Positions 11,690 to 41,490 of a stretch of 44,032 bases of DNA are shown one piece after another (position 1 is the first letter of the stretch; each line of letters starts with the position of its first letter). Origin of the DNA: Halobacteriales archaeon QS_8_65_32 (lineage in GTDB: Archaea; Halobacteriota; Halobacteria; Halobacteriales; Halococcaceae); contig PXRY01000037.1 in NCBI GenBank assembly GCA_003022925.1, positions 1-44,032 on the forward strand. Direction: 5' to 3'. The translations under genes and the position numbers were made by a program. The notes beneath the pieces were generated by a model. It was not told the origin of the DNA. It did no database searches and saw nothing but the letters and a program-made list of their open reading frames with translations.

Positions 11690-11912
11690 ACAGAGCGTCT
11701 CGGACGGGATTGAAAGGGGCCGACCGCTCGGCGACGGCGGGCGACGTAAGCACCACAGGTGAGCGACCGAAGGGAGCGAGCCGAGCAGCGTGGTTCGAGA
11801 GAGCGAAGCTCTCTCGTTATCACAAAAGACCGCGCAAAGCGCGGTCTTTTGAACGACAGCGAGCCCCCCGAGCCGAGCGTGTCGGGGGGTTTCAAAGCAG
11901 TCTGATCGGCCT
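11690..11912 (+). repeat. Hairpin-rich intergenic element, copy A
   Basis: The copy opens with a GGGATTGAAAGGGGCC-type head near 11705, then a block containing CGACGTAAGCACCACAG, GAGCGACCGAAGGGAGCGAG, and three hairpins. Hairpin 1 is CGAGAGAGC / GCTCTCTCG with a GAA loop (11796-11816). Hairpin 2 is AAAAGACCGCGC / GCGCGGTCTTTT with an AAA loop (11824-11850). Hairpin 3 is CCCCCCGA / TCGGGGGG (11864-11889), followed by T-rich DNA. The order head-body-G/C hairpin-T tract recurs in other copies of this window. The rest of 11494-11689 shows nothing I can call. Confidence 0.75.
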
Positions 11913-17544: not shown

Positions 17545-17840
17545 TTCAGGAAACCCCCAGACGTTCGACTCGGGGGACTCGCTGTCGTTCAAAGGACGCG
17601 AAGCGTCCTTTATGATGTGATCAGAACTCGAAGAGTTCTGATTTACTCACGAGAACTCCGTTCTCGTGAATGTGGCAAAAACGCGGAGCGTTTTTGCTGC
17701 AAGCGGGACCTTCAGTCCCGCAGTGACGAAAGGCGCTTTGCGCCTTTCGAACCACGCGCCTCGCTCCCTCCGGTCGCTGCGGTGCTTACGTTGCCCGCCT
17801 TCGCCGAGCGTCCGGCCCCTTCCAGTCCCACCCGAGACAC
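17545..17840 (-). repeat. Hairpin-rich intergenic element, copy B (six serial hairpins)
   Basis: The head (GGGACTGGAAGGGGCC on the minus strand) is at about 17813-17830, followed by the block AACGTAAGCACCGCAGCGAC. Then come six hairpins in 160 bases: 17727-17749 (10-bp stem, TTT loop), 17703-17721 (7 bp), 17675-17697 (10 bp, GGA loop), 17648-17668 (9 bp, TCC loop), 17621-17641 (9 bp, GAA loop) and 17591-17611 (9 bp, GAA loop). Last is a C5/G5 pair at 17554-17576. A TATAATAA sequence on the same strand at 17895-17902 could drive transcription into it. It fills most of the gap between lysS and the protease gene. Confidence 0.78.
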
Positions 17841-24413: not shown

Positions 24414-24804
24414 GGTTAGGACTGGAAGGGGCCGACCGCGTGGCGGCTTCGCCGTGGTTCGAAAGACGCCTCCGGCGTTTTTCGGTCAGTGCTGGAAATC
24501 GCGGACTCCTACCTTGCAGCAGGAACGTTGCGCGTTCCTGCCACATCTGCTCGCGGGCGAAGCCCGCTCACATGGTCCGTGGGACCGGAGGTCCTGCTTG
24601 CAGCAAAAACGCTCTGCGTTTTGCCACATCACGAAACGGCCAAGTCGTTCGAACGACCCCGCTCACACGGTTCGAAGGACCGGCAGTCCCTCGCGCTACT
24701 CACGAGCACGCGGTCCCTTGGGTCCCGCCCTGCCGCCCCATCAGCGGTCGTCGCCATCGAAGCGGCCGCTGAGCGGAAAATCAAAAGGGTGTCAGCGGGT
24801 TAGC
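24414..24804. repeat. Hairpin-rich intergenic element, copy C (two opposed heads)
   Basis: A plus-strand head (GGACTGGAAGGGGCCG, about 24419-24434) and a minus-strand head (about 24710-24735, GGGCGGGACCCAAGGG) face each other around a hairpin body. Stems include GCAGGAACG / CGTTCCTGC (about 24508-24532) and a GCAAAAACGC / GCGTTTTGC pair near 24601-24625 with a one-base bulge. CGAAAGACGCC / GGCGTTTTTCG near 24460-24485 contains one G-T wobble. Its right edge carries GTCAGCGGGTTAGC (24791-24804), also present at 26444-26457. No gene is visible in 24293-24804. Confidence 0.7.
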
Positions 24805-25354: not shown

Positions 25355-25541
25355 CGTTCGCTTGCTTCGCTCGCTCGCGGGAACGCCGGCCCCTTTCAGT
25401 CCTACCCTGCCGGTTGATCGGCCGGTCGTCGCCGCCGAAGCGACCGGCGTTCTCGTGGCGAGAGCAGGGAGCAACGCCGGTGGGACCGCGGACGCGACGC
25501 TCGCCGGGCGAAGAAAGGAGAAGGGTAGTCGGCGGGCGATA
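25355..25541 (-). repeat. Intergenic element, copy D
   Basis: On the minus strand the copy reads GTCGGCGGGCGATA-side boundary (25528-25541), then CGCCCGGCGAGCGTCGCGTC, CCACCGGCGTTGCTCCCT and CACGAGAACGCCGGTCGC. The family core GGGTAGGACTGAAAGGGGCC follows near 25389-25408. It lies between the stop of the intact DUF5615 gene and the promoter of the decayed DUF433 gene, and it lacks the hairpin body of copies A and B. Confidence 0.72.
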
Positions 25542-26239: not shown

Positions 26240-26457
26240 AACCTACGTCCGGTCGCTGTGGTGCTTGCTTCGCCGGCCGTCGCCGACCGTGCCAGCCCCG
26301 TTCAGTTCCACCCTACCGGTTGATCGGCGGTCGTCGAAGCGGCCGGCGTTCTCGTGAGCGAGCAATACGAGCGACCGGGAGTAGGGAGCAACGCCGGTGG
26401 GACCGCGGGCGCGACGCTCGCCGCGCGAAAAACGGGAAGGGCCGTCAGCGGGTTAGC
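26240..26457 (-). repeat. Intergenic element, copy E
   Basis: The copy is nearly identical to copy F over about 150 bp, including ACGCCGGCCGCTTCG, ATTGCTCGCTCACGAG and the core GGAACTGAACGGGGCTGGC. Its right boundary GTCAGCGGGTTAGC (26444-26457) contains the TAA stop codon of the gene at 26453-26758, so the element supplies that stop. Its left end merges with the promoter of the DUF433 gene. Confidence 0.75.
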
Positions 26458-27261: not shown

Positions 27262-27562
27262 AGCGGACTACGGGACGACCGCTCGAAAGCCCCTGGCGGG
27301 CTCAGCTCCCAGGACTCGCTGTGCTCCTCGCCTCACTCCCTTCGGTCACTCGGCTCCGGTGCTTACTTCGCCGGCCGTCGCCGAGCCCGCCAGCCCCGTT
27401 CAATCCCGCCCTGCCGGTTGCTCGGCGGTCGTCGCTTGCGAAGCGGCCGGCGTTCTCGTGAGCGAGCAATACGAGCGACCGGGAGTAGGGAGCAACGCCG
27501 GTGGGACCGCGGACGCGACGCTCGCCGGGCGAAAAAACGAGAAGGGAAGTCAGCGGGCGATA
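27262..27562 (-). repeat. Intergenic element, copy F
   Basis: It shares its boundary (GTCAGCGGGCGATA, 27549-27562) with copy D and about 150 bp with copy E. The core GGGCGGGATTGAACGGGGC is at about 27393-27411. The block GAAGTAAGCACCGGAGCCGA is at about 27353-27372, then GTGACCGAAGGGAGTGAGGC. It lies between the pilin stop codon and the HVO_A0114 operon. Confidence 0.75.
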
Positions 27563-28214: not shown

Positions 28215-28465
28215 CGAAGGCCCCTAGCGCTCTCGTGAGCGGTAGCGAACGAGAGCAGGGAGCAGCTCTGCTGCGACCGTGGTCTCGGCTCGGGCGGCTC
28301 GCTGCGCTCCTCACCTCGCTCCCTCCGGTCGCTCGGCTCCGGTGCTTACTTCGCCGAGGTTCGGCGAACGCAAGGCGCTACGCGCCTCGGATGGCGAACA
28401 GCGCAGCCGTGAGCCGACCGCACCAGTCCCTTTCAGTCCCGCCCTGTCGGGTGGTTAGCGGTGGT
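28215..28465 (-). repeat. Intergenic element, copy G
   Basis: The core GGGCGGGACTGAAAGGGAC is at about 28430-28448 and the block CGAAGTAAGCACCGGAGCCG at about 28336-28358, with GAGCGACCGGAGGGAGCGAG. A hairpin AGGCGC / GCGCCT with a TAC loop lies at 28373-28387. Shares over 50 bp with copy F. The remaining part of 28025-28214 holds the pilin upstream region and no gene. Confidence 0.72.
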
Positions 28466-29865: not shown

Positions 29866-30236
29866 GGCCCGCAGTCGTTCGAAAGACGCTTCGTGTCTTT
29901 CGTGATGTGACAAAAAACGCTCCGCGTTTTTGCTGCAAGCGGGACCTTCGGTCCCGCAATGACAAAAGGCGCGAAGCGCCTTTTGAACCACGAGCGCGAG
30001 TGAAAGGAGCGCGAGCGAGGACCCCGGCAAAAATCTGTTCTCGTGAGCGAGTGCCAGCGAGCGAACGAGAGTAGCGCGGGACCGAAGGTCCCGCGGACTG
30101 TTCGAGCGGGTCTACGGCCCGCGAGAAGGCGGGGAGTGAGAGTGAGTGACCGAAGGGAACGAACGAGAACGACCATCGCACTAAAAACGCTCACTCGCGC
30201 CTGCGGCGCTCGTTCGCGCGTGCAGTGCTAGTGCCT
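29866..30236 (-). repeat. Hairpin-rich intergenic element, copy H
   Basis: No standard head is recognisable, but the hairpin body matches copy B in order: CGAAAGACGC / GTGTCTTTCG with one G-T pair (29880-29902), AAAAACGC / GCGTTTTT (29913-29931), GCGGGACC / GGTCCCGC (29939-29957) and CAAAAGGCGC / GCGCCTTTTG with a GAA loop (29963-29985). The right half (30000-30236) has further GCGGGACC / GGTCCCGC (near 30078-30096) and CG-rich direct repeats such as GAGCGAGCGAACGAGAG. It fills the gap between the DUF433 gene and the broken restriction gene; no gene is visible. Confidence 0.7.
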
Positions 30237-36959: not shown

Positions 36960-37262
36960 GACCGACGGTAACTACTTCGGGTGGGACTGGAAGGGGCCGG
37001 GCGGTCACGGGCGCGAAGCGCCCGTTGGCTCGGGAGAGCGAAGCTCTCCCGTAGGTCGGCGAACCCCGGCGAAGCAAGCACTGGAGCGACCGGCAGGGAG
37101 CGAGCGCGCGCAGCGAGCCGCGGGTAGTCGTTCGAGAGAGCGAAGCTCTCTCGTGATGACGGGAGAACGGAGTTCTCCCGAACGGATCATGCGAACGGGC
37201 CTCCGGCCCGTGAGCAGAAGCCGAGCGTGTCGGGGGCTTCCAAAACGGTCGTGGCGACTCTT
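36960..37262 (+). repeat. Hairpin-rich intergenic element, copy I (five hairpins)
   Basis: The head GGGTGGGACTGGAAGGGGCC is at about 36980-36999. Five triloop hairpins follow: ACGGGCGC / GCGCCCGT (37007-37025, GAA), CGGGAGAGC / GCTCTCCCG (37031-37051, GAA), CGAGAGAGC / GCTCTCTCG (37133-37153, GAA), CGGGAGAAC / GTTCTCCCG (37160-37180, GGA) and ACGGGCC / GGCCCGT (37195-37211, TCC). The end carries GCCGAGCGTGTCGGGGGCTT and T-rich DNA, as in copy A. The second and third hairpins differ by a G-C to A-T pair. No gene is seen in 36888-37329. Confidence 0.78.
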
Positions 37263-41309: not shown

Positions 41310-41490
41310 AGAACAGCGGGACAGGGCCGACCGCATGGCGGCTCCGCCGCGGTCGGGCTGACGCCTCGCGTTCCCAACTTGAGCGACGCGAAGCGTCGTT
41401 CGAGCGACAGTGAGCCCCCAGCCGATCATTCGGGGACCTCCGAAGCGACCCCGGCGGCTCTTTCGCCGAACGCTGCTGAGACGAGTACCG
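41310..41490 (+). repeat. Hairpin-rich intergenic element, copy J (degenerate)
   Basis: A worn head (GCGGGACAGGGCCGACCGC, about 41316-41334), a GGCGG / CCGCC pair near 41337-41350, and GAGCGACGC / GCGTCGTTC with a GAA loop and one G-T pair (41381-41401) are recognisable. They are followed by GAGCCCCCAGCCGATCATTC and a CGGGG stretch with CTCTTTCGCCGAACGCTGCT, the tail of copies A and I. It fills most of the gap upstream of infB. Confidence 0.65.

Follow-up and report, generated by a model that had tools for sequence, protein, structure and literature searches.

The window, i.e., the whole stretch of 44,032 nucleotides that was analysed, is an entire contig (C42) from a haloarchaeal genome of 3.28 Mb that is 78% complete. 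Near 17.5 kb, the element designated here as copy B is flanked by genes for a class I lysyl-tRNA synthetase and an M50/PDZ protease. It belongs to a family with a nested build: a dispersed repeat, intergenic in position and called the host repeat below, contains in some copies a cassette in which two to about nine hairpins follow one another (Table 1). Cassette-bearing copies are found in the window at 11.7, 17.5, 29.9, and 37.1 kb, and the empty cassette site at 27.3 and 28.3 kb.

A preliminary description of this DNA named nine copies with a common head and a shared block, as well as a headless copy near 29866. Eight of the nine are recovered by the motif GGGACTGAAAGGGGC, which occurs with at most two mismatches at 11706, 17815, 24418, 25389, 26295, 27393, 28426, and 36983, but the copy near 41310 has no match. 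At up to three mismatches, the window holds 10 matches to this motif, against a mean of 1.2 and a maximum of 5 in shuffles. When the element is read in its own direction, the supposed head is its tail (GCCCCTTTCAGTCCC). The shared block, GTGCTTACNTCGCC, is present with at most one mismatch at six sites (11740, 17782, 26261, 27359, 28342, and 37068), but at up to three mismatches it does no better than 2 of 100 shuffles. The headless copy does carry hairpins, and the stems quoted for the various copies are present, namely CGAAAGGCGC at 17727, CAAAAGGCGC at 29963, CGGGAGAGC at 37031, CGAGAGAGC at 37133 and 11796, and GCAGGAACG at 24519. Copy B (17591–17749) holds five perfect hairpins with three-base loops and a sixth with a 5-base loop, but not every copy has an array: near 25355, 26240, 27262, and 28215 there is none, the repeats at 27314 and 28297 showing the empty site instead.

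Table 1. Features of the hairpin cassettes and of their host repeat in the window.
Feature	Position	Strand	Basis
Copy B host repeat, 5' part, up to cassette insertion site CTCGCTG	17551..17584	+	sequence, other copies; outer limit approximate
Copy B serial-hairpin cassette TCGTT...AACCA, six hairpins, 170 bp	17585..17754	+	boundaries from empty sites
Copy B hairpin I, AAAGGACGC, loop GAA	17591..17611	+	hairpin reading
Copy B hairpin II, ATCAGAACTC, loop GAA	17620..17642	+	hairpin reading
Copy B hairpin III, TCACGAGAAC, loop TCC	17647..17669	+	hairpin reading
Copy B hairpin IV, GCAAAAACGC, loop GGA	17675..17697	+	hairpin reading
Copy B hairpin V, GCGGGAC, 5-base loop CTTCA	17703..17721	+	sequence
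Copy B hairpin VI, CGAAAGGCGC, loop TTT	17727..17749	+	hairpin reading
Copy B host repeat, 3' part including GTGCTTACGTTGCC and tail GCCCCTTCCAGTCCC	17755..17834	+	motif matches
Copy A two-hairpin cassette (hairpins 11796-11816, 11823-11851)	11791..11856	-	hairpin reading
Copy A host-repeat tail	11706..11753	-	motif matches
Copy C host-repeat tail; hairpins partly decayed (GCAGGAACG at 24519)	24418..24660	-	outer limit approximate
Copy D tail motif alone, without hairpin array	25389..25403	+	motif match
Copy E host-repeat 3' part, without hairpin array	26261..26309	+	motif matches
Copy F host repeat, empty cassette site (junction 27321/27322)	27314..27407	+	empty-site comparison
Copy G host repeat, empty cassette site (junction 28304/28305)	28297..28440	+	empty-site comparison
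Copy H cassette without tail	29866..29992	-	hairpins 29913-29931, 29939-29957, 29963-29985 and one imperfect; limits approximate
Copy I host-repeat tail with hairpins 37007-37025, 37031-37051	36983..37081	-	motif matches, hairpins
Copy I two-hairpin cassette (37133-37153 loop GAA, 37160-37180 loop GGA)	37128..37186	+	hairpins

Used as a query, copy B matched at least 94 pieces of its own genome, at least 40 of them at an E-value of 1e-25 or better, both counts being lower bounds since 40 of 330 first-look candidates were scored. Thirty loci of this genome were fetched and then read directly. The outer ends of the repeat are inverted copies of GGNGGTGTTTAGTTNAG, a terminal inverted repeat present with at most two mismatches at 81 places of the genome against 2 for a reversed control, and the inverted end pairs are spaced 211–476 bp apart. 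Flanking 8-mers equal at 7 or 8 of 8 positions, i.e., putative target-site duplications, were found at four of 13 end pairs, a set obtained from 16 rows after dropping one duplicate and two rows without a 3' flank, and in which two loci are counted twice with alternative ends. None of 20000 permutations did as well, and the remaining nine pairs showed no match. In the genome of the window, the outer repeat, to judge from its ends, likely moves as a miniature inverted-repeat transposable element (MITE) too. Pattern lists for this genome (78% complete) and for three others of its genus held no inverted end pair 0.8–3 kb apart, nor was an autonomous transposase for the outer repeat seen in them, the family search having covered Y1 transposases.

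Many copies are located at contig ends or close to them (L005, L007, L009, L010, L020, and L024), and cassettes probably break the assemblies of this genome. In a Halorubrum-like genus (L112, L111, and L135), one to several tandem units made of a TTTATAA motif followed by CTCCAAAGCCCC stand upstream of the host repeat; these TATA-box-like repeats may act as promoters or mark the ends of the element. At L006, L009, L014, and L034, in several genomes, there is a second recurrent module in which CGTGGGACC..GGTCCCACG precedes GACCATGCGAGCGGGCTTCGCCCGCGAGCAGA or a near variant of it. On visual inspection, the outer part of the host repeat could pair with itself over a long distance, CTGGCGGGCTC with GAGCCCGCCAG in copy F and CAGTCGCGAGGGCG with CGCCCTCGCGACTG in the Halorubrum-like genus, and this pairing would enclose facing C4 tracts, with G4 on the opposite strand. 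A G-quadruplex is conceivable in this outer part, at 17551–17834 of the window and in other copies.

Full copies of the cassette follow one plan, GTCGTT[I]TGATGTG[II]TT[III]GTG[IV]TGCAA[V]AATGA[VI]AACCAC, in which the linkers are conserved, the stems differ from copy to copy yet pair, and the loops mostly have three bases. In 386 kb of the window's genome, sampled for holding copies, 151 perfect triloop hairpins have a stem of at least 8 bp and 75 a stem of 10 bp or more. The corresponding numbers in a third-order Markov control were 29 and 2, from a run in which the window was entered twice, so that the 81 it counted in 430 kb are an overestimate. The excess concerns three-base loops only, with 151 hairpins against 25 with four-base, 23 with five-base, and 21 with six-base loops in the same 386 kb. 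Folded as single-stranded DNA, the cassette of copy B has a predicted energy of -61.8 kcal/mol (z -12), and the other strand a predicted z of -10.6. Near position 1500 of L106, about nine triloop hairpins with other linkers stand in series, flanked by tnpB and by a gene for a short-chain dehydrogenase.

Five slots defined by the linkers gave a set of 365 hairpins, after 39 of 404 contexts were dropped for having more than three mismatches or another loop length. Their loops are GAA (87), TTC (83), GGA (50), TCC (37), TTT (25), AAA (10), and rarer others, and the set comprises 46 distinct perfect stems. GNA loops (150) and TNC loops (130) together make up 280 of the 365, each GNA loop being a TNC loop on the opposite strand, and a C-G pair closes 351 of the 365. 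By sequence, such a loop with its C-G closing pair is the C-GNA-G mini-hairpin of DNA, which is extraordinarily stable according to the accessible part of PMC4686876, where a melting temperature of 78°C is given for GCGAAGC.

Filled copies read CTCGCTG|TCGTT...AACCA|CGCTCC and empty ones CTCGCTG|CGCTCC, so that at one point of the host repeat the array is present in some copies and absent from others. Ten empty copies were found among the loci of the window's genome, the two at 27314 and 28297 included, and 11 among 30 loci of the Halorubrum-like genus. At one orthologous locus, six hairpins are present in L083, two in L143 (Halorubrum xinjiangense), and none in L131. Judged from these junctions, the hairpin array is a separable insert in the host repeat, a point beyond the reach of the preliminary description. 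Downstream of the cassette site, L131 has a different hairpin run interrupting the same repeat, at a point that reads CCGACTCC^CTCGCGCGTGC in other copies, and therefore more than one cassette type, and more than one site, seems to be in use.

Within conserved coding genes, three in-frame inserts were found (114, 117, and 45 bp). The first, with four hairpins, is in a gene for an S9 peptidase (Pfam) whose uninterrupted site is present in six of the eight relatives examined, two of them of the same genus (L258 and L259), the other two relatives not matching the search string. The 117-bp insert, also with four hairpins, is near the end of a tnpB gene in L098 (TNB domain), at GTGG^CACAGCC, and has the same boundaries as the cassettes of the host repeat (TCGTT...AACCA), on the other strand. 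There, at L098:1379-1555, the cassette sits in the loop of a stem-loop at the tnpB end, which resembles the sot0042 family with a score of 54 bits against a cut-off of 88. The 45-bp insert has two hairpins and interrupts another tnpB; the empty form of each tnpB was inferred from the sequence of the other. No target-site duplication borders the cassette at CTCGCTG^CGCTCC or at the L098 site GTGG^CACAGCC. The inserts in L110 and L106, which are of other cassette types, share 0 to 5 bases at their ends, which is ambiguous, and depart from the G^C junction seen in the main type. The precise G^C insertion in two unrelated settings, of which one is a hairpin loop, and the lack of a target duplication suggest a replication-linked or single-strand route, as far as junction sequences can tell.

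The preliminary description proposed a search of haloarchaeal genomes with a covariance model. Such a model of the five-hairpin array, run under strict filtering with no more than 16 candidates scored per genome, had matches in 111 of 195 Halobacteria genomes, and in 99 of the 157 of good quality; some weak matches may be other hairpin runs. In other families, read directly, the linkers are kept in many copies and the stems are different. A pattern scan of named genomes gave at least 117 loci, 83 haloarchaeal and 34 bacterial among the matches listed, the former in Halorubrum, Halosimplex, Natrinema, Haloarcula, Haladaptatus, Halovivax, and others. With a pattern that fixes three outer pairs by itself, a perfect triloop hairpin was found at 71 of these 83 haloarchaeal loci and one within two mismatches at 80, against none within two mismatches at the 34 bacterial chance loci among the matches listed. 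The serial-hairpin architecture, judged from these loci, recurs through the order Halobacteria. Plasmids gave pieces alone, with query coverage of no more than 14% in 9 records and no more than 25% in 7. Carriage by phages or viruses was rejected, as there was no phage match and, among the matches listed for viral contigs, which had 30 pattern matches, no site with a hairpin of at most two mismatches.

How such inserts move, and why their stems stay paired, could be explained by selected DNA hairpins acting as single-stranded recognition sites of a recombinase or transposase, the pairing being kept by the needs of the protein, as in REPIN/RAYT systems or integron attC sites. The precise G^C insertion in both the host repeat and the L098 tnpB would fit, as would the GNA loops and C-G closing pairs kept over 46 stems. 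REPINs have inverted ends, and the cassette ends are indeed inverted (GTSGTT...AACSAC), which makes REPIN/RAYT a lead. It is weakened by the search for the Y1 transposase (PF01797), which found no such gene in 7 of 15 genomes; array matches are present in 6 of these seven (G000-G003, G058, and G021, of which G000-G003 are incomplete assemblies). Moreover, the stems vary so widely that recognition would need shape alone. A REPIN-like system does not seem to be required for cassette movement, and we consider selected recognition hairpins unlikely as a general account.

The stem changes were described earlier as compensatory, and this is borne out. In 23 five-hairpin copies, the covariation score was 0.130 against 0.084 in shuffles (0 of 500 as high), and although copies related by descent do not make independent events of these counts, pairs changed on both sides numbered 12 against 6.2 (0/500) and covariation cells 36 against 13.2 (0/500), slid controls giving 2–3 pairs. 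Four of five measures exceeded all 500 shuffles; the fifth, further pair types, was not above chance (31 against 29.3, reached in 96 of 500). The covariation of the array stems is real, and the family described earlier as dispersed serial triloop hairpins with paired changes holds.

Compensatory change is a standard sign of functional RNA structure, and a structured non-coding RNA family whose stems covary by selection on the fold would account for it. The linkers and their order, conserved across Halobacteria, would also fit, as would the TATA-like motifs seen by eye upstream of Halorubrum-like copies. Several DNA-level marks in the dispersed copies stand against it, however. Slot mismatches, read in the element's orientation, are G.T 43, A.C 37, and other 26 (G.T against A.C, p 0.58), so that no preference for G.U over A.C is seen, whereas 24 tRNAs from the same loci have 39 G.U and no A.C among 537 pairs (Fisher 2e-8). 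The same balance would also be expected if both strands were transcribed and selected. The two loop orientations are similarly frequent and intermediates between GAA and TTC are rare (GAC 8, GTA 6, GTC 6, TAA 0, TTA 0, TAC 3). Reverse-complement loops are not predicted by RNA selection but are predicted by hairpin inversion. Loop orientation shows no correlation between slots (p at least 0.236 in ten comparisons, with few copies each), and therefore single hairpins, not arrays, appear to be inverted. The number of hairpins varies at orthologous loci, and some cassettes lie within coding genes. The earlier statement that no named family fits also stands: the window has no Rfam match at the gathering score, and seven further loci gave sot0042 and HgcC alone, both below their cut-offs and both in L098 at the tnpB end. 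Because there is no G.U preference and reverse-complement loops are similarly frequent, RNA selection is not supported. Single-stranded DNA had been named beforehand as one of two options, RNA being the other. As the main reading, the RNA family was rejected on the Rfam negatives, the loop inversion, and the mismatch balance against tRNAs, and we hold it to be improbable.

Nine distinct orthologous pairs of filled sites, with upstream flanks of 82–93% identity, were compared (12 rows, three of which repeat the same locus). In one, L227/L251 (Natronolimnohabitans innermongolicus and Natrinema zhouii, upstream flank 90%), the same two stems are kept and both loops are GAA in one genome and TTC in the other. 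A second pair shows no change, the number of hairpins differs in at least four, and several have stems replaced. Whole stems replaced at orthologous loci, the same stems in different slots and genomes, and the occurrence of mixed arms would all follow if ready-made hairpins were exchanged between copies by homologous recombination, with no copying from arm to arm. The mixed arms of the A1 set fit either such swapping or template switching. Exchange does not make inverted loops between unchanged linkers, however, and leaves the first perfect copy of each of the 46 stems unaccounted for, and as a full explanation it has little probability.

We thus favour, with moderate confidence, mobile DNA cassettes of serial triloop hairpins carried in a dispersed haloarchaeal repeat, the paired stem changes arising by template switching rather than by RNA selection. 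During replication or repair, a strand would fold back at a C(GNA)G mini-hairpin, which would start the process, and the polymerase would copy one arm into the other before resuming; a single step of this kind would restore perfect arms and invert the loop. High intracellular salt may help this fold-back. For the movement of whole cassettes, the likeliest candidate is a replication-linked route in which a folded single strand would be inserted, favoured because several array-bearing genomes have no detectable Y1 transposase. Several points temper template switching. Swapping of whole hairpins between copies by recombination may also contribute to the stem changes, and clean inversion of the loops with stems kept is seen in one of the nine orthologous pairs. 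Some form of selection on these sequences, which template switching by itself leaves unexplained, is suggested by linkers that recur and by the preference for GNA.

Hairpin-associated small inversions in chloroplast DNA were reportedly described by Kelchner and Wendel in 1996. As in the chloroplast inversions covered by the available text of PMC2903610, the loop of an inverted repeat occurs here in both orientations among close relatives, and arrays and mobility are not described in that text. A further related system is that of the template-switch hairpins of Monttinen and Loytynoja (2022; PMC8794818), where, in the part available, one event can copy an arm into the other and thereby restore the arms, change several bases at once in a compensatory manner, or invert the loop. 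A table in the same source reports enrichment of loop inversion alone and of multiple compensatory changes, but not of both combined. Those hairpins are in RNA genes (microRNA, rRNA), whereas the present ones are archaeal triloop arrays, dozens per genome, with near-equal loop orientations. The double-hairpin elements of fungal mitochondria (Paquin et al., 2000, as cited in an excerpt of PMC7218506) are similarly made of hairpins and cited as evidence of mobility, but have two hairpins and are mitochondrial; the archaeal cassettes, with two to about nine hairpins and recurring linkers, are set apart by this description.

REP, REPIN, and BIME elements (cf. PMC12306157) also have hairpins, many intergenic copies, and inverted pairs with short head motifs, but here Y1 was not found in several array-bearing genomes and the stems are of many sequences; no word starting with "halo" occurs in the accessible portion of PMC12306157. 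Rickettsia palindromic elements resemble the inserts described above in being palindromic DNA placed in frame in unrelated genes, but they are about 150 bp long, belong to other organisms, and have no serial triloop arrays named in the available section (PMC10969869). Haloquadratum has transposase-free mobile repeats of its own, i.e., MITEs with inverted ends and target duplications, PATEs, and SMRs; the PATEs have near-terminal palindromes akin to IS605 ends, and by their description, which in the portion at hand includes no serial hairpin cassettes, they are set apart (PMC3119063). A literature search of titles and abstracts, with few subscription journals, returned no description of serial hairpin cassettes in haloarchaea.

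A bolder reading is that the cassettes move as folded single strands without a transposase of their own, repair and diversify themselves by C(GNA)G arm copying, imitate RNA covariation across an archaeal order, and form a new class of mobile DNA; this we put forward tentatively, as a possibility that we somewhat doubt. What gives the family its interest is that covariation stands here beside reverse-complemented loops, the absence of a G.U bias, and exact triloops. If true, these arrays would be a natural test bed for the rate at which template switching produces covariation without RNA function, and would call for caution in covariation-based RNA discovery. They would also represent a kind of haloarchaeal mobile element that places in-frame peptides into conserved genes.
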